Below, piece by piece: positions 10,871 through 26,590 of a stretch of DNA of 32,888 nucleotides. The translations under genes and the position numbers were made by a program. The notes beneath the pieces are model-generated. The model did not search any database. It was given only the letters and a program-made list of their open reading frames with translations, and was not told the origin of the DNA. Every line of letters begins with the position of its first letter. The stretch's first letter is position 1. The DNA is from Alphaproteobacteria bacterium (lineage in GTDB: Bacteria; Pseudomonadota; Alphaproteobacteria; GCA-2731375), in assembly GCA_021776235.1 (NCBI GenBank), contig JAJFGG010000105.1, positions 1-32,888 of the forward strand, given 5' to 3'.

Positions 10871-11986
10871 TCAGACCTCGCGGCTTTCGAAATCGATGCG
10901 CGGATCAATGATCGTGTACATCAGGTCGCCGATCAGGTTAAGGATCAACCCCATTAGCGTGAAGACGTACAAAGTGCCCAGCACCACCGGATAATCCCGA
11001 TTCAGGGCGGCCTCGAAACCCAGCAGGCCAAGGCCGTCCAGCGAGAAAATCACCTCGATCAACAGCGAGCCGGTAAACAGGACGCCGATAAAGGCCGAGG
11101 GAAAGCCGGCAACCACGATCAGCATGGCATTGCGGAAGACATGGCCGTACAGCACGCGCCGTTCGCTCAAGCCCTTGGCCCTGGCGGTGACCACATAGTG
11201 CTTGTTGATCTCGTCGAGAAAGGAATTCTTGGTCAGCATGGTCAGGGTGGCGAAGCCGCCGATGGCCATGGCCAGGATCGGCAGCACCATGTGCCAGAAA
11301 TAATCGCCGATCCGGGCCGGCCAGCTCATATCGTCCCAACCTTCCGAGGTCAGGCCGCGCAGAGGGAAGATGTCCCAGAACGAACCACCCGCGAACAGCA
11401 CGATCAGCAACACCGCGAACAAGAAGCCGGGGATGGCATAGCCGACGATAATGACGGTGGATGTCCAGATGTCAAAGCGGCTGCCGTCGCGCACCGCCTT
11501 GGCAATGCCCAGGGGTATGCAGATCAGATAGGTCAGCAGGGTGGTCCATATGCCAAGCGAGATGGAGACCGGCATCTTGTCGATCACCAGGCCGATCACC
11601 GGCTGATCGCGGAAGAAGCTTTCACCAAAATCAAACTGCAGGTAATTCCAGACCAACAAGGCGAAACGTTCGTGGGCCGGCTTGTCCAGGCCGAATTGCC
11701 GTTCCAGATCCTTGATCAGCTCCGGGTCCAGGCCCTGGGCACCGCGGTATTTGCTGGAAATGGCCGCGTCGGCGCCCTGGCTGGCCATTTGCTGTTCGCG
11801 GTTGACCTCGGCCCCGCCGCCGCCCGAGACCCGGGAGGTCGCCTCCACCGCCGTGCCGGTCAATTGCGCAATGACCTGTTCCACCGGTCCGCCGGGCAGG
11901 AATTGCAGCACGACGAAATTCAGCAGCATAATCCCGAACAGCGTCGGGATCATCAGCAGCAGGCGGCGGACGATATAGGCGGCCAT
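10871..11986 (-). CDS. yejB: Peptide ABC transporter permease (YejB-like)
   Basis: The 371-aa protein starts with the typical [18 protein letters not shown] of DppB/YejB permeases. A soluble insert follows the first helix (about residues 43-100, including a short Gly run), then membrane helices and the EAA coupling loop ([12 protein letters not shown] near 241-252). It forms the heterodimeric pore with YejE. The gene abuts the binding-protein gene stop (11987) and the YejE start (10870) without spacers, so translation is probably coupled along yejA-B-E-F. Confidence 0.92.
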
Positions 11987-21151: not shown

Positions 21152-21189
21152 GCATTTGCACGGCAGCGAAATGCGGCCAGGACGGGAAC

Positions 21190-23982
21190 TCATTGACCGG
21201 GTGCGGGTCCGGTTCCAGTTCCTGTCCCAGGTCCAGGTCCAGGTCTGGTAGTGTTACCGGGGCCCTGTCCTTCCGTTTCCTTATCCTCAGGTTGGCCATC
21301 TCTTGGCGGCTTATGCTTTTCTGGCGGAATCCCTGTGCATCGGCCACGTTTGAAATCTTCTTTCGTCTGATAGATCGTCACGTTTTGTGGTTCAGTTCTG
21401 CCTTCGCTGGTCCAAACAAAAATTTCCGCATCTGCCATGCAGAAATTGGTACGACTTGGGCCACCGCCATATCCTGGCACCTCTATGCCCCACTGCATCG
21501 GCGCTTTCACATCAAGGAAGGTCGCGATGATGCCTTTCATGTCCGGCAATATCTCTATCTGGTCCGCCTTTTGGGAGCCGAGGGTAACAACAGTACTGCG
21601 CCAAAGATCCACCCCCATCAGCAACAGCTTGGCGGATTTTTGCCCCACATAGAGTTCCCCGAGCGAGCCCAGCGACGTTAAGCGCGGGCTGCGGCCCAGC
21701 GCATAGCCCATCTTGCGGGGAATTTCATCAGTCCGGCCTGGCAGCCGAATCTTGAATTCGAAATTTCGCTTGCTTCGCCTGGTTCCGCCCTTTGCTTCAT
21801 TTTTCCTCGCGCCGCATACCGGTTCCGCGCGTATAGGATCGGATTGAGACAAGATCATCGTCGTATGCTCTGGTGCGATAAAGCAGGAAGACACTTCGAT
21901 CATCGCTCTTTTCCACCAGCTCGGGACGGACAAGACGGCGGCAACGGAATTTTGTATCGGGACGTGGCGGAACGTTGGTTCGTCGCTGATGTCGAACTTG
22001 GGTCCGATCAACCAACCAAAATGCGTAGATTTCGGGGCGGCCGCTTGCGCTCCCTGCTGGGCAAATTGACGATCCGAGAAGCCGACGATCAAGGGCTGGC
22101 GTTTAATGGTTTGGATGCGCTGTTCTTGGCTTCTTAGATGGCTCAGCAGGCTTTCGAAATTTGCCGACGACGTCGCCGTCGCGGCGGTGTTGAGCGCAAG
22201 GTTCAACTCACGAAGCTGCGAATATAACTTTGTCACCCGTTGGATCGATTCCTTTGGGCTCGACGTATAGGAATACACCGGCGCGTTGTCCAAGGCGCTG
22301 TAAAAGTCCTTGACGATCTCCATGTCGGGACATTTTGTTTCGCCGTTTTCGGCGACGTCCGGCCAGATTTTCGGCCGGATTTTCGGTGCACATCCCGCGA
22401 ACGACCCTTTTGTCTCGGGCTTGGGGCCCGGGCTCATGGAGATATTGCAATAACCCACATCGCAGCCGGTCTTTTCAAGGTTTGCAAAGCGAGCGAGATC
22501 ATGTAGCTGAAGGTATTTGTTGACTACGAAATCGGCGATTGCCGATTGAATGACCTGCCGTTCCAATTCAAACGCCGCATTGCTCAGTCTGAACGCATGG
22601 TGCACCTGGCCGAACAGTTCATCGCTCCTGAAACGATTCAGCAGATTTTGAAGTTCAGGGCCCCTGATACTCCCGGGCGACGCCATGATGGGTTCGAATT
22701 CCGGCTTCTTAAACAGGGTGTCGAGATTTTCATGGGCCCCGGGAACAGCGTCCGTTGCCTCATCCAGCGCCTCCAACCAGGCGGAATAGCGAACGTTGGA
22801 ACGGCTTTGATCCTGGTGGTCGTTCAATTCGCCGTAAACAAGCCGCATGTAATCGAGTATGAAGCTGCGGATGTATTCAAACTCCCGATCCTGGCCCAAA
22901 TCAAGCGTGGGCTCGAAATTGCCAAACACCTGTTGCGGGTAGGGAAGATTAATGATCCGGTCAAAAAATATTTCTGAGCAATCTACTCTTTGGCTGATAT
23001 CCACACCGCGGCAGTTCTTGTAGGGCGAAGAAGAGCTTTCGCTCGTTGGGCGATTGTTTGGCTTGCTTTTCGCGAAGGCGGCCGGCGCTTGAGAATTATC
23101 TCCAATTTCCCCCCGCAGAAAATTTTCCAACTCCAGCAACACCTTCGGTGTCGTTTTTCGGGTAAAAAAGGATTGTGTCAGTTCGAAAAGATAGTCGTTC
23201 AACCGCTGTTGCGTATCCCGCAGCCACCTATTGTAGGTGTCCATCTTATCCTTGTCACCGTCGGCATTCCGCAACCTGACCTCGATAAATGCCCAGTTTT
23301 GGTTTCTTTCCTGAGGCAGGACGGTGACGTCGAACTTCATCCGGTAAAGGGTATTGCCGTTGATGTCGTGGCGGTCATCCAGTTGCGTCTCCAACAGTTC
23401 CGCCCGTATTTCCTCGCGGTAGGCCAACAGGTCACGGAAATCGTCAATTTTTGATCCAGCAGGTTTCGCCGGACCGGCACCATGCGCATTTTGGCCATTC
23501 AATAACGTCGATTTTTCTGCTTTTTCCGCCGGAGCTTTTCCGTCCTCAGCCAAAGGCGCGCCAGCACCCGGCGCTTTGCTGCCCAGCACTCCTGCTTCGA
23601 CCCTGATTTTGCCGCCGGCCTTGATCCTGTCACTTTGTTCGACAATGGCCTGATTTCGGATCCGAAGACTGTCCGCATCATCCAGGCGACGCATCAACCA
23701 TCCGTGTTGGCGCAGCCTGTCGTTCAGCAGTCGTTCGCGGGAATAGACCTCGGGACTATCGACCAGGATAAAGCCTCCATCGTGTCTTTTCGCGAACGGC
23801 AGTGAAATATTGGGGAAGGGAACATAAAGCAGAAGCCCTAAAGCGATACCAACGGCCAAGACAAGAAGCCATTTGCCGGCAGATTTCGCCAGGCGCATGC
23901 CCTGGATAGATCGCCGCCCGGCGCCAGCGGAATTCTCACGATCGGTTACGGAAATCTGGTCCGGACCGCTATTGTCGGTCAT
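21190..23982 (-). CDS. Large single-anchor membrane protein of unknown function in the RiPP cluster (orf930)
   Basis: I do not recognise this 930-aa protein. After a basic N-terminus comes one membrane helix (about residues 36-55) and then about 870 mostly soluble residues, probably periplasmic. They include an Ala/Lys-rich linker (about 125-165) and charged helical regions. Ten scattered cysteines could form disulfides outside the cell membrane. The tail is low-complexity Gly-Pro/Gly-Thr (last about 17 residues) after a charged Pro-rich stretch. The ATG at 23982 has AGAGG 9 nt upstream; a TTG at 23991 is less likely. It overlaps the 251-aa gene by 14 nt, so it belongs to the radical SAM operon. 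Roles such as displaying, processing or anchoring the secreted peptide are only guesses. Confidence 0.85.
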   Translation of the reverse strand: MTDNSGPDQISVTDRENSAGAGRRSIQGMRLAKSAGKWLLVLAVGIALGLLLYVPFPNISLPFAKRHDGGFILVDSPEVYSRERLLNDRLRQHGWLMRRLDDADSLRIRNQAIVEQSDRIKAGGKIRVEAGVLGSKAPGAGAPLAEDGKAPAEKAEKSTLLNGQNAHGAGPAKPAGSKIDDFRDLLAYREEIRAELLETQLDDRHDINGNTLYRMKFDVTVLPQERNQNWAFIEVRLRNADGDKDKMDTYNRWLRDTQQRLNDYLFELTQSFFTRKTTPKVLLELENFLRGEIGDNSQAPAAFAKSKPNNRPTSESSSSPYKNCRGVDISQRVDCSEIFFDRIINLPYPQQVFGNFEPTLDLGQDREFEYIRSFILDYMRLVYGELNDHQDQSRSNVRYSAWLEALDEATDAVPGAHENLDTLFKKPEFEPIMASPGSIRGPELQNLLNRFRSDELFGQVHHAFRLSNAAFELERQVIQSAIADFVVNKYLQLHDLARFANLEKTGCDVGYCNISMSPGPKPETKGSFAGCAPKIRPKIWPDVAENGETKCPDMEIVKDFYSALDNAPVYSYTSSPKESIQRVTKLYSQLRELNLALNTAATATSSANFESLLSHLRSQEQRIQTIKRQPLIVGFSDRQFAQQGAQAAAPKSTHFGWLIGPKFDISDEPTFRHVPIQNSVAAVLSVPSWWKRAMIEVSSCFIAPEHTTMILSQSDPIRAEPVCGARKNEAKGGTRRSKRNFEFKIRLPGRTDEIPRKMGYALGRSPRLTSLGSLGELYVGQKSAKLLLMGVDLWRSTVVTLGSQKADQIEILPDMKGIIATFLDVKAPMQWGIEVPGYGGGPSRTNFCMADAEIFVWTSEGRTEPQNVTIYQTKEDFKRGRCTGIPPEKHKPPRDGQPEDKETEGQGPGNTTRPGPGPGTGTGTGPAPGQ

Positions 23983-24724
23983 GACAATCAACCTCTGAAT
24001 TTTGATCGGTACATTGTTCGGGCGCCGTCGGCTCGACGATCAGATTGACATCGGGTTCCGTCATCTTCGAGATATCCTGAAGCAGGCGCATTTGCCGTAG
24101 CGGCCCGAAGCAACCTTCGCCCGGCTCCAATGCAAGCCTCGCCCGCGGACAAGACCGGTCCAGATTCATCCACATAACGCCACGCGTTTCGAAACCAAAG
24201 TTGAGCATTACGGTTGCCGGCTCGGCAGGGATTGCAAGGTTCGGCGTTTGGCTGTTTTTCACCGGTGGAAGCGCGGCGTTCCATGCCGGCTCGCCGCCCG
24301 GAGGCGAGATCTCGGCTCTAATCGTACAGGTTCGATCGACGGGCACGCGAATGAATTCCAGATACGCCAACAGATGGTCGGCAAATGCCCGGTATTCCGG
24401 CGTTTCGCCCGAACCAGCGGTGACCTGATCCATATCCAGATCCCAGGAAAAATTCCTCAAGTGGTTGGGGAAAGTAAAAACCTCAACGACCATGGGGCCG
24501 GCGCCGCCGTCATCGCCGCCCGTCAAGCGCAACAATTCGGCGGCTCTTGGGGTGCGCCAGGCATCACACGTTGCATCGTCTTGCGCTCTGAAATTACGGT
24601 CCGACGCAACGCGGAGCTTTTGTACGGCCCGCCAGTCGCCGGCATAGTGCGAAAATGGCCGGACGATGACCCGGCCGCCAGGCCCGGTTTGTTTCGCAAG
24701 ATCGGGCGGCTGCGGAGTCGTCAC
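23969..24724 (-). CDS. Hypothetical protein of the RiPP cluster (orf251)
   Basis: This 251-aa protein is not recognised. It has no membrane helix and no clear signal peptide, so it is probably cytoplasmic. It is rich in Pro, Arg and Trp and has six cysteines. Features seen are V-I-V-R-P-F-S-H-Y-A-G-D-W near residues 19-31, a beta-rich middle (P-M-V-V-E-V-F-T-F-P near 77-86) and P-E-P-A-type linkers. The GTG start overlaps the maturase stop as GTGA, and a run of five Gs lies just upstream as Shine-Dalgarno. The end overlaps orf930 by 14 nt. This tight coupling suggests it works with the maturase product, but nothing in the sequence tells how. Confidence 0.8.
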   Translation of the reverse strand: MTTPQPPDLAKQTGPGGRVIVRPFSHYAGDWRAVQKLRVASDRNFRAQDDATCDAWRTPRAAELLRLTGGDDGGAGPMVVEVFTFPNHLRNFSWDLDMDQVTAGSGETPEYRAFADHLLAYLEFIRVPVDRTCTIRAEISPPGGEPAWNAALPPVKNSQTPNLAIPAEPATVMLNFGFETRGVMWMNLDRSCPRARLALEPGEGCFGPLRQMRLLQDISKMTEPDVNLIVEPTAPEQCTDQNSEVDCHDRQ

Positions 24725-25920
24725 AAGGATCGCCCCCCGGCCATCGCGGGGGATGCGGTGTCAGGTTGCGCCAGTTCGGCTTCGATGTCCGCTACGATGA
24801 TATCCGTCACCGCCATTTTTGTCAGACGGCAATACATCGTCTCCGTTTCGTCAAGCCGGCCGTGTTCGAAGTACTTGTTGGACGGCGCGCCGCCGCCGCA
24901 GACGCCGAAATAATCACATGATTTGCGGCATCGTGATCGGCCAGCCTCGATTTCCCGACGTACTTTTTGAAACACGGCGCTATCCTCCAGGTCTGCCAGC
25001 CCGCCCTGGTGGACATTGCCGAATATGAAATTTCCATAGGCATCGGAAAATTGCCCCAGCAACTCGGGCGAAAAGGTGCTGATGTTGCCGTCGGCATCGA
25101 CACTGACGATGCCAAAGGGCACGACCTGATGATTGTAGAGCGCGGTATCCTGGTCAGCGGCGATCGCTGTCATGGCGTCATTGAATTCGCGAACATCCAA
25201 AACGCCCGGATGCTGTTTCACCAGGTCGAGGAAGCGATGGAAAAAACGTCTCAGCAGCACCTCGGTATCGTTGCCGGCCAAGGTTGAATTAAGATTTGCG
25301 CCTTCGATCTCCTCGATATTGAAGCCGATCTGTCCGATATCGTTGTCGGCGAAGAAGTCAAATATCTCATCGGGGTATTCCAGCGACTGCCGCGTTAAAA
25401 CGCAGATTGCATGGAAATCGATGCCGTTGTCCTGCAATCGCCCGATTCCGCGCAGCGTCCGTGCATGCGTGCCCGCCCCCGAGCGGGTTTTCCGATGGCG
25501 ATCGTGAAGAAACGCCGGACCATCGACACTTACGCCGACCTGAAGACCGGTTTCCAGAACAAAGTCGCACCAGGCCTGGTCAATCAACACCGCATTGGTT
25601 TGGATCGAATGGGTGAGTATCAGATTGTCGGGCCTTGCTTGTTCCGCCAGGGCGAAGGCATCGCGGTAAAATCCGATCGGCATGGTTGTTGGTTCGCCAG
25701 CATGCCAGACCACGCCCAATTGGCGCGACAGCAAGTTGCTTTCGAATACCGTCGCAAAAATCTGCCTCAAGGTATCAGGTTTGATCTTTCGAGTGTCGCT
25801 CCGGTTCGGCAAATAACAATAGTCGCAATCGAGATTGCAGAACGGCGTCGGCTGGATCACCAATAAATCAATCTTCGGGGATAAATCCGCGTGGCGAATT
25901 GACATGGACTTATTTTCCAT
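24721..25920 (-). CDS. grrM: Cyclophane-forming radical SAM/SPASM peptide maturase, GrrM/OscB type
   Basis: The 399-aa protein has the radical SAM cluster motif C-N-L-D-C-D-Y-C (Cys28, Cys32, Cys35) followed by Y-L-P-N-R. GrrM-typical blocks are V-V-W-H-A-G-E-P, H-S-I-Q-T-N-A, V-G-V-S-V-D-G-P, F-N-I-E-E-I-E-G, and S-T-F-S-P-E-L-L. A C-terminal SPASM region has Cys331, Cys335, Cys341 (before G-G-G-A-P-S-N-K-Y) and Cys364 in E-T-M-Y-C-R-L. Relatives make C-C crosslinks between an aromatic ring and a residue two positions later in three-residue motifs of a secreted RiPP. The precursor gene lies 91 bp upstream. The frame is open to an ATG at 25983, and another ATG lies at 25905; 25920 gives the usual short N-terminus, but the Shine-Dalgarno is weak, so the start is uncertain. 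Confidence 0.92.
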   Translation of the reverse strand: MENKSMSIRHADLSPKIDLLVIQPTPFCNLDCDYCYLPNRSDTRKIKPDTLRQIFATVFESNLLSRQLGVVWHAGEPTTMPIGFYRDAFALAEQARPDNLILTHSIQTNAVLIDQAWCDFVLETGLQVGVSVDGPAFLHDRHRKTRSGAGTHARTLRGIGRLQDNGIDFHAICVLTRQSLEYPDEIFDFFADNDIGQIGFNIEEIEGANLNSTLAGNDTEVLLRRFFHRFLDLVKQHPGVLDVREFNDAMTAIAADQDTALYNHQVVPFGIVSVDADGNISTFSPELLGQFSDAYGNFIFGNVHQGGLADLEDSAVFQKVRREIEAGRSRCRKSCDYFGVCGGGAPSNKYFEHGRLDETETMYCRLTKMAVTDIIVADIEAELAQPDTASPAMAGGRSL

Positions 25921-26011
25921 CCGCGATTCCGGTCGGTTCAATTGGCTCACATGGCTGAGGCCTAGGGAAGAAAACAGCCACATTCATGTTTCGGCGGTCA
26001 GGTATCCGGTA

Positions 26012-26329
26012 TTATCGGCGATAATTATACCAGCGTTGGTTCCGCCAATCGTTCCAGCCATTTTGCCAATTTGACCAATTGTACCATTGGGCCACCTGTT
26101 TCAAGGTTCGCAACGGCCCGTCTTTCCTGGCGCCCTGCTCGCGGAGGCTCGAGCGAATGGCCTGGATTCGGTCCGCGATGGAATTTTTTGCCTCTTCTGG
26201 CGCGGTTGCTGCACTCGCCTTATGGGCGATCGTGGCGCTAAGAACCAAACATGCGACCCCAACCGCCAACTTTGCGGTGATCAAATCCTTGATGTGTTGA
26301 CGGCGGGATTTGCTATGCGAATTTTTCAT
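26012..26329 (-). CDS. grrA: GrrA/OscA-like RiPP precursor with Trp-triplet core
   Basis: The 105-aa peptide has a basic N-terminus and a Sec-type signal (about residues 18-40, K-L-A-V-G-V-A-C-L-V-L through K-A-S-A, with likely cleavage after A40 or A42). A leader helix N-S-I-A-D-R-I-Q-A-I-R-S-S-L (49-62) matches the conserved segment of Grr precursors. The core (81-105) is tiled with W-Y-N (82-84), W-S-N (85-87), W-Q-N (88-90), W-N-D (92-94), W-R-N (95-97) and W-Y-N (100-102), ending Y-R-R. Each fits the aromatic-X-Asn/Asp crosslink motif used by three-residue cyclophane enzymes. Gly is scarce, unlike classical Gly-rich Grr peptides. AGG lies about 6 nt before the ATG. It is directly followed by the maturase gene. 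Confidence 0.85.
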   Translation of the reverse strand: MKNSHSKSRRQHIKDLITAKLAVGVACLVLSATIAHKASAATAPEEAKNSIADRIQAIRSSLREQGARKDGPLRTLKQVAQWYNWSNWQNGWNDWRNQRWYNYRR

Positions 26330-26413
26330 AGTTACCTGACTCTATTGCCAGAGATGCGATTGCGCACGTCCAAGCGGCCAACCATGACCACTACTTCTTG
26401 TAGAGTACGCCGA

Positions 26414-26443
26414 ATTAAAGCATCAAAATACCGTCATTGTCAC
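26414..26443 (-). promoter_or_regulatory. Candidate sigma-70 promoter for the grrA-grrM operon
   Basis: On the minus strand GTGACA (26438-26443) and TTTAAT (26414-26419) are separated by 18 bp. Each matches five of six consensus bases. Transcription would begin near 26407, leaving a leader of about 78 nt before the precursor ATG. No operator was identified. The gap 26330-26590 holds no other gene. Confidence 0.4.
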
Positions 26444-26590
26444 GTAGTTCGGCTGTCCCATTAGGCCGCGCTCGGGCATCTGAACCGCGGCACCTTGGGG
26501 TCCTGCGCTGCAGCGGCGCTGGCTGCGAGGATCATCGCCTGTTCCAGCCAAATAGTGTTTTTGCTCAATTAGTGGACGTCTCGCATGGAT

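Follow-up and report, generated by a model that had tools for sequence, protein, structure and literature searches.

A GrrM/OscB-type four-gene cluster with two partner genes of no known family in an alphaproteobacterial contig

Introduction

What do two genes that match no known family do beside a precursor peptide and a GrrM-type radical S-adenosylmethionine (SAM) maturase? The question is raised by a 32,888-nt stretch of DNA (hereafter the window; Alphaproteobacteria bacterium, GenBank assembly GCA_021776235.1, contig JAJFGG010000105.1, positions 1 to 32,888), in which four minus-strand genes lie between nudC and an EamA transporter gene. The original prediction, made from the DNA letters and their open reading frames (ORFs), was a GrrM-type cluster for a ribosomally synthesized and post-translationally modified peptide (RiPP) with two unknown partner genes, and our comparisons support that reading of the locus. 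What is new here is a predicted GrrM/OscB cluster with orf251 and orf930 as partners; sequence comparison gives no general link between the orf930 family and GrrM. To our knowledge, no biological role of GrrM/OscB cyclophane peptides is known.

A GrrM/OscB-type maturase and its precursor peptide

The block is made up as follows.

26012-26329, minus strand: grrA-like precursor gene (105 aa)
24721-25983, minus strand: GrrM/OscB-type radical SAM/SPASM maturase gene (420 aa)
23969-24724, minus strand: orf251 (251 aa)
21190-23982, minus strand: orf930 (930 aa, counted from the ATG at 23982)
26414-26443, minus strand: promoter-like element GTGACA-N18-TTTAAT; the precursor start lies about 85 nt downstream
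21152-26590: whole 5.4-kb block, bounded by the stop codons of nudC and the EamA gene

The chain of four genes was present as originally described: grrM overlaps orf251 by 4 nt and orf251 overlaps orf930 by 14 nt. By their ORF coordinates, the precursor and maturase genes are spaced 28 nt apart. An alternative start of orf930, a TTG 9 nt upstream of the ATG, would give 933 aa (orf933).

The maturase scored 464.9 bits against TIGR04261 (GrrM/OscB; curated cut-off 310), which bears out the earlier call of a GrrM-like enzyme. Cysteines 49, 53 and 56 of the CX3CX2C radical SAM motif and the C-terminal cysteines 352, 356, 362 and 385 were each kept in 84 of 84 aligned GrrM proteins. By these marks the maturase is a predicted member of the GrrM/OscB family. 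PADLOC returned a weak viperin match, as expected for any radical SAM enzyme. In midpoint-rooted trees of 86 and 31 GrrM proteins, the window protein paired with full support with that of G187 (JAQBYC010000004.1, 'Proteobacteria bacterium isolate casp150-mb.302'), a second species of the genus, and the pair fell outside the cyanobacterial group in both trees. Grouping of the window GrrM with those of loci L024 and L071 was weakly supported (84/87), and a single clade of it with the GrrM of L030 was neither recovered nor rejected (p 0.207 in the approximately unbiased test).

The C-terminal tail of the precursor, QWYNWSNWQNGWNDWRNQRWYNYRR, has 25 residues and contains all six Trp of the protein. 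Each of the six is followed by Asn or Asp at position i+2, forming W-x-N/D triads; only 4 of 200,000 shuffles of the tail reached six triads, and all six are retained in G187. The precursor thus carries, in its C-terminal part, the aromatic-x-Asn/Asp triads by which triceptide precursors are recognised. Its leader resembles a Sec-type signal peptide with an Ala-Ser-Ala end, as read by eye. According to passages of PMC11002830, OscB forms a bond between Trp C7 and the beta-carbon of an Asn or Asp located at i+2. We call the precursor GrrA-like only, because its score against the GrrA/OscA1 model lies under the cut-off (see below).

Evidence for the four genes as one unit

G187 has the same four genes in the same order, again set between nudC and the EamA transporter gene. 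The 4-nt overlap is kept, and the overlap of 14 nt is 8 nt there. nudC was present in each of the 13 further genomes (genus and family) whose junction we checked. In G359, G390, G388 and G386, nudC and the EamA gene converge with overlapping stop codons and nothing between them; in G394 the two are 44 nt apart. In G387 the two genes are separated by other sequence of about 0.4 kb (L141, about 10963-11366) with no match to any of the four proteins, and the nudC/EamA site may therefore take inserts repeatedly. nudC lies at a contig end in G389 and G281, and no EamA match was found beside it in the stretch examined of G385, G391, G392, G393 and G067. As nudC and the EamA gene directly adjoin in four close relatives, the block between them appears to have been gained or lost as one unit. 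The nudC tree did not resolve the branching of the window's genome, G187 and G359 and does not settle the direction.

All four genes are under protein-level constraint (purifying selection): between the window and G187, the ratios of nonsynonymous to synonymous substitution rates (dN/dS) were 0.25 for the precursor, 0.19 for grrM, 0.28 for orf251 and 0.36 for orf933. The candidate promoter that had been proposed ahead of the precursor is also found in G187, with both hexamers identical and 23 of 25 bases around the second hexamer matching, and conservation is weaker in the remaining upstream region. Among six genomes searched, its 23-nt core (up to 3 mismatches) occurred at this locus only. 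A simple sigma-70 consensus scan, which requires A at position 2 of the second hexamer, did not list the site; the scan gave 3 matches in the region, no excess over the 2.7 of shuffled sequences.

orf930 and orf251

As had been stated from the window alone, orf930 and orf251 match no family; this held over cut-off for NCBIfam, Pfam and PADLOC, and against sequences of the Protein Data Bank each gave E values of 0.1 or worse. The nearest Pfam entry for orf930 was a sub-threshold match to DUF2388 (E 0.0095). orf930, which has the N-terminal motif ILVDSPEVYSRERLLNDR, does have relatives of its own: in G187, L030, G732, G753 and G756, and partially in G393 and G390. Those of G732, G753 and G756 matched the window protein with E values of 1.2e-44, 7.2e-26 and 5.4e-33, and the similarity to relatives outside the genus runs along most of the length, as is expected of a family. 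The family was detected in 4 of 96 relatives of the window's genome (the window itself, G187, a C-terminal relative in G393 and a fragment in G390), in 3 of 398 genomes of a phylum sample (window, G732, G753) and in 2 of 76 genomes around that of L030 (G754, which is the L030 genome itself, and G756).

By eye, a lipobox-like Cys stands at the N-terminus of the L111, L112, L118 and L030 relatives, and the proteins of the window and G187 have a hydrophobic anchor at the same position. This should place the bulk of orf930 in the periplasm, the destination expected for a Sec-exported peptide. orf930 is a member of an undescribed family, predicted from these features to be signal-anchored or lipoprotein-type. 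Of the four proteins it is the most divergent between the window and G187 (57% identity), and the G187 counterpart is longer (1039 aa; L009 8349-11468). The extra C-terminal stretch of the latter resembles, by eye, a second copy of the preceding domain; the window protein terminates in a Gly-Pro-Thr-rich tail. A resemblance of the C-terminal part to an IPT/TIG-like immunoglobulin fold was considered, but Pfam lends it no support.

Pieces corresponding to the C-terminal part of an orf930 relative stand alone in other genomes of the family (L010 8468-10642; L011 4765-5241); upstream of the piece in L010 are ORFs that we take to encode transposases. A relative of the C-terminal part on a Vibrio plasmid (27% identity over 22% of the query) has unnamed neighbours only. 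In L118 (4238-11123), an orf930 relative of 1313 aa lies 115 nt behind genes for a patatin-like phospholipase and a nucleotidyltransferase (CD-NTase) of the type found in cyclic-oligonucleotide-based antiphage signalling systems (CBASS), named by PADLOC effector and cyclase models, and a TIR gene is nearby.

orf251 is 64-65% identical between the window and G187. No signal peptide was seen by eye, and the protein is predicted to be cytosolic. Profile comparison gave no relation to the orf930 family. Among 385 genomes of the class sample, orf251 was found in two, the window's genome and G187. It was found neither in the other loci searched nor in the plasmid collection; G385-G391 were not searched specifically.

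Co-occurrence of GrrM, orf930 and GrrP

GrrM over cut-off was present in 5 of the 385 genomes of the class sample, in 2 of 11 genomes examined of the genus and in none of 4 others of the family. G390 gave weaker radical SAM matches, under the GrrM cut-off, and no GrrM was found in the 17.5-kb stretch of G756, a result that applies to the stretch and not to the genome. A second case of adjacency came from L030, a contig of a metagenome-assembled genome named Gammaproteobacteria. Its GrrM is 46% identical to that of the window, and 15 nt after it an orf930 relative starts, 34% identical over the 162 residues to the contig end. Just upstream is a transposase-like ORF.

The absence of GrrP noted earlier extends beyond the window: no protein of its whole genome or of G187 exceeded the curated cut-off of TIGR04262, and weaker binding-protein matches exist. 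As a positive control, GrrP was over cut-off in 5 of 17 genomes, and each of these had been reached via a cyanobacterial locus.

Neighbours of other GrrM loci

Outside cyanobacteria, large nucleoside triphosphatases (NTPases) were seen beside the precursor and maturase in GrrM loci. Pfam identified nSTAND1 in L024, L071 and L099, TIR in L071 and L099, nSTAND1 with WD40 in L027 and L032, TIR with WD40 in L028, and WD40 in L048 and L052. In L024 and L071 the nSTAND/TIR genes lead directly into the precursor and GrrM on one strand; in L071, TIR, nSTAND1, precursor and GrrM stand head to tail. Such loci span 3684-10387 in L024, 2422-9230 in L071 and 7575-14923 in L099, and L027/L028, L032, L037, L040, L048 and L052 were likewise noted as tandem-triad GrrM loci beside nSTAND, TIR or WD40 genes.

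We typed 84 GrrM loci by precursor: 13 had tandem W/F/Y-x-N/D triads, 50 were Gly-rich and in 21 no precursor was recognised. An nSTAND, TIR or WD40 gene lay within 7 kb in 8 of 13, 0 of 50 and 3 of 21, respectively (tandem vs Gly-rich, Fisher p 3.3e-7, with related loci counted several times). Looser limits and an added TIR profile gave 8/13, 0/50 and 4/21, the added locus being L080 (E 8.6e-4). The typing rule was set after the pattern had been noticed, and the probes were built partly from tandem-type loci. On the tree, the neighbour trait changed at least 5 times, with 2 independent contrasts, too few for significance. Eight large neighbour ORFs of other GrrM loci (five loci with Gly-rich precursors, three without a recognised one) contained no nSTAND, TIR or WD40 domain, and three of these ORFs match no family. 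The window block and the tandem-type locus of G187 (L025) have no nSTAND, TIR or WD40 gene within 7 kb of grrM.

A literature search for GrrM with cyclophane and radical SAM found no paper. Passages of Kaur et al. 2020 (PMC7159879) propose that vWA-MoxR conflict systems include a radical SAM enzyme paired with a standalone peptide effector; besides these, the search found no recognisable paper that links cyclophane maturases with STAND or TIR genes.

Proposed function and its alternatives

Of the explanations considered we favour, at about even odds, that the four genes form a cassette which produces and exports a triceptide-type (cyclophane) RiPP, with a membrane-anchored partner in the periplasm. 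GrrM would couple the ring of each Trp to its i+2 partner, Asn or Asp, through the beta-carbon of the latter; up to six three-residue cyclophanes would form, and the cross-linked 25-residue tail would become rigid. The Sec-type leader would take the peptide out of the cytosol and be cleaved near Ala-Ser-Ala. With its predicted membrane anchor and most of its chain on the periplasmic side, orf930 might then bind, display or tolerate the peptide, and orf251, predicted to be cytosolic and translationally coupled between grrM and orf930, might help in modification or hand-over. Predicted cyclophane formation is well supported, and predicted Sec export fairly supported, by sequence and comparison. 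The roles of orf930 and orf251, suggested by linkage and predicted location, are guesses because both structure predictions failed.

Several results weigh against the exported-RiPP cassette. The precursor scored 30.4 bits against TIGR04260 (GrrA/OscA1; cut-off 31, E 4.6e-7), 0.6 bit short, although the anatomy of the predicted precursor (leader, six triads) fits. No protease or dedicated exporter was recognised within the block. Structure predictions gave mean confidence values (predicted local distance difference test, pLDDT) of 31.7 for orf930 (3 sequences) and 29.3 for orf251 (2 sequences), and orf251 has no relatives outside the genus in the sets searched. In L030, neither a tandem-triad ORF nor another precursor was recognised. 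We also surveyed 53 GrrM-bearing genomes besides the window's and G187 (50 of 80 loci plus 3), and the orf930 family was present in one, that of L030. G732, G753 and G393 have the orf930 family but no GrrM at E 1e-20, and orf930's own function therefore cannot depend on GrrM. The outcome that would have refuted the original reading, orf251 and orf930 failing to accompany grrM, was not obtained for the pair: G187 has all four genes in order, and the block behaves as a unit. Beyond the genus, orf930 adjoins GrrM once, and orf251 was seen in the two species only.

These distributions give weight to another explanation, that orf251 and orf930 are passengers in the same insert and only the precursor and maturase belong together. 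It would account for the orf930 relatives without GrrM in G732, G753 and G393, for an orf251 that stands beside no other GrrM among the loci searched and for the 52 of 53 other GrrM genomes without the orf930 family. We nevertheless think it rather improbable: the genes overlap in both species and are present or absent as one block, purifying selection acts on orf251 and orf930, and GrrM and orf930 are adjacent again in L030. A different role for orf930 within the cassette is also conceivable, namely that of an immunity or receptor protein that shields the producer from, or senses, a peptide acting on the cell envelope of competitors. An anchored or lipoprotein-type family adjoins genes for a secreted RiPP in two separate settings (window/G187 and L030), orf930 is strictly linked within the block, and its being the least conserved of the four (57% identity, dN/dS 0.36) is possible for an immunity protein. 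Proteins of 900-1300 aa, though, are unusually large for immunity, family members exist without GrrM and no killing activity of the peptide is known; an immunity or receptor role is accordingly on the unlikely side.

The neighbours of other GrrM loci suggest a further alternative, a conflict (counter-invader) module in which the modified peptide is the sensor or effector, as suspected for those loci, and orf251 and orf930 replace the nSTAND/TIR partners. The contrast between 8 of 13 tandem-triad and 0 of 50 Gly-rich loci, the same-strand nSTAND/TIR genes leading into precursor and GrrM in L024 and L071, the orf930 relative 115 nt behind the CD-NTase and patatin pair of L118 with a TIR gene nearby, and the radical SAM enzyme with peptide effector proposed in passages of PMC7159879 all point this way. 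Neither the window block nor G187, however, has an nSTAND, TIR or WD40 gene. PADLOC returned nothing for orf251 and orf930 and the weak viperin match for GrrM, and no defence gene was recognised beside the orf930 relatives of G732 and G753. The pattern was noticed before it was counted, with probes partly from the same loci and only 2 independent contrasts. We regard a conflict module here as very unlikely. A wider version holds that GrrM/OscB loci are of two kinds, the Gly-rich GrrA loci and an older, phylogenetically wider tandem W/F-x-N/D kind in counter-invader systems resembling nucleotide-binding leucine-rich-repeat (NLR) immunity (nSTAND, TIR, WD40), and that the window block is a proteobacterial form in which orf930 and orf251 replace the NTPase/TIR genes and the cross-linked RiPP would be an immune sensor or effector. 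This is speculative and distinctly unlikely; 'older' is a guess because the root is a midpoint.

The locus combines partners that stay together in a small block, sister species whose empty site can serve as a control, and a promoter-like element; with these, the role of GrrM/OscB cyclophane peptides becomes testable by deletion and co-expression. orf930 opens a protein family absent from the libraries searched, and the neighbours of the tandem-triad loci hint at a possible link between RiPPs and NLR-like immunity.

Comparison with described systems

The cluster is closest to the cyanobacterial GrrM/OscB-GrrA/OscA loci of the triceptides. The maturase exceeds the cut-off of TIGR04261, and the precursor combines a signal-like N-terminal leader with C-terminal aromatic-x-Asn/Asp triads. 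Passages of PMC11002830 report OscB to be active on W-x-N/D, a motif present in the window precursor. Unlike the Gly-rich precursors, its triads stand nearly head to tail, without Gly-rich spacing. The window differs further in lacking a GrrP over cut-off, in a precursor under the TIGR04260 cut-off, in two extra overlapping genes of no known family and in its proteobacterial host. Tandem W/F-x-N/D loci beside nSTAND, TIR or WD40 genes (L024, L027, L028, L029, L048, L052, L071 and L099) share the tandem triads without Gly spacers, but the partners in the window are orf251 and orf930, with no NTPase, TIR or WD40 gene. What the window shares with the vWA-MoxR FtsH ternary conflict systems described in passages of PMC7159879 is the proposed pairing, inside a multi-gene system, of a radical SAM enzyme with a standalone peptide as its substrate; we recognised no gene of the vWA, MoxR or FtsH type in the block, and those passages do not name GrrM.

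Composition of the block and further observations

The G+C content of the 5.4-kb block is 0.550. We considered this as a sign of transfer and found it weak, because other kilobases of the window lie at 0.555-0.60. A repeat search found no matching end repeats at the block ends. On a verrucomicrobial GrrM contig (L084 2755-4607), a RiPP enzyme of the multinuclear non-heme iron oxidase (MNIO) type (MbnB_TglH_ChrH) and a subtilase are encoded near GrrM. In the window, a 30-nt direct repeat, 70% identical, links 26051-26080, which codes for part of the precursor tail, with 26541-26570, just behind nudC; it is perhaps a decayed second precursor, or due to chance.

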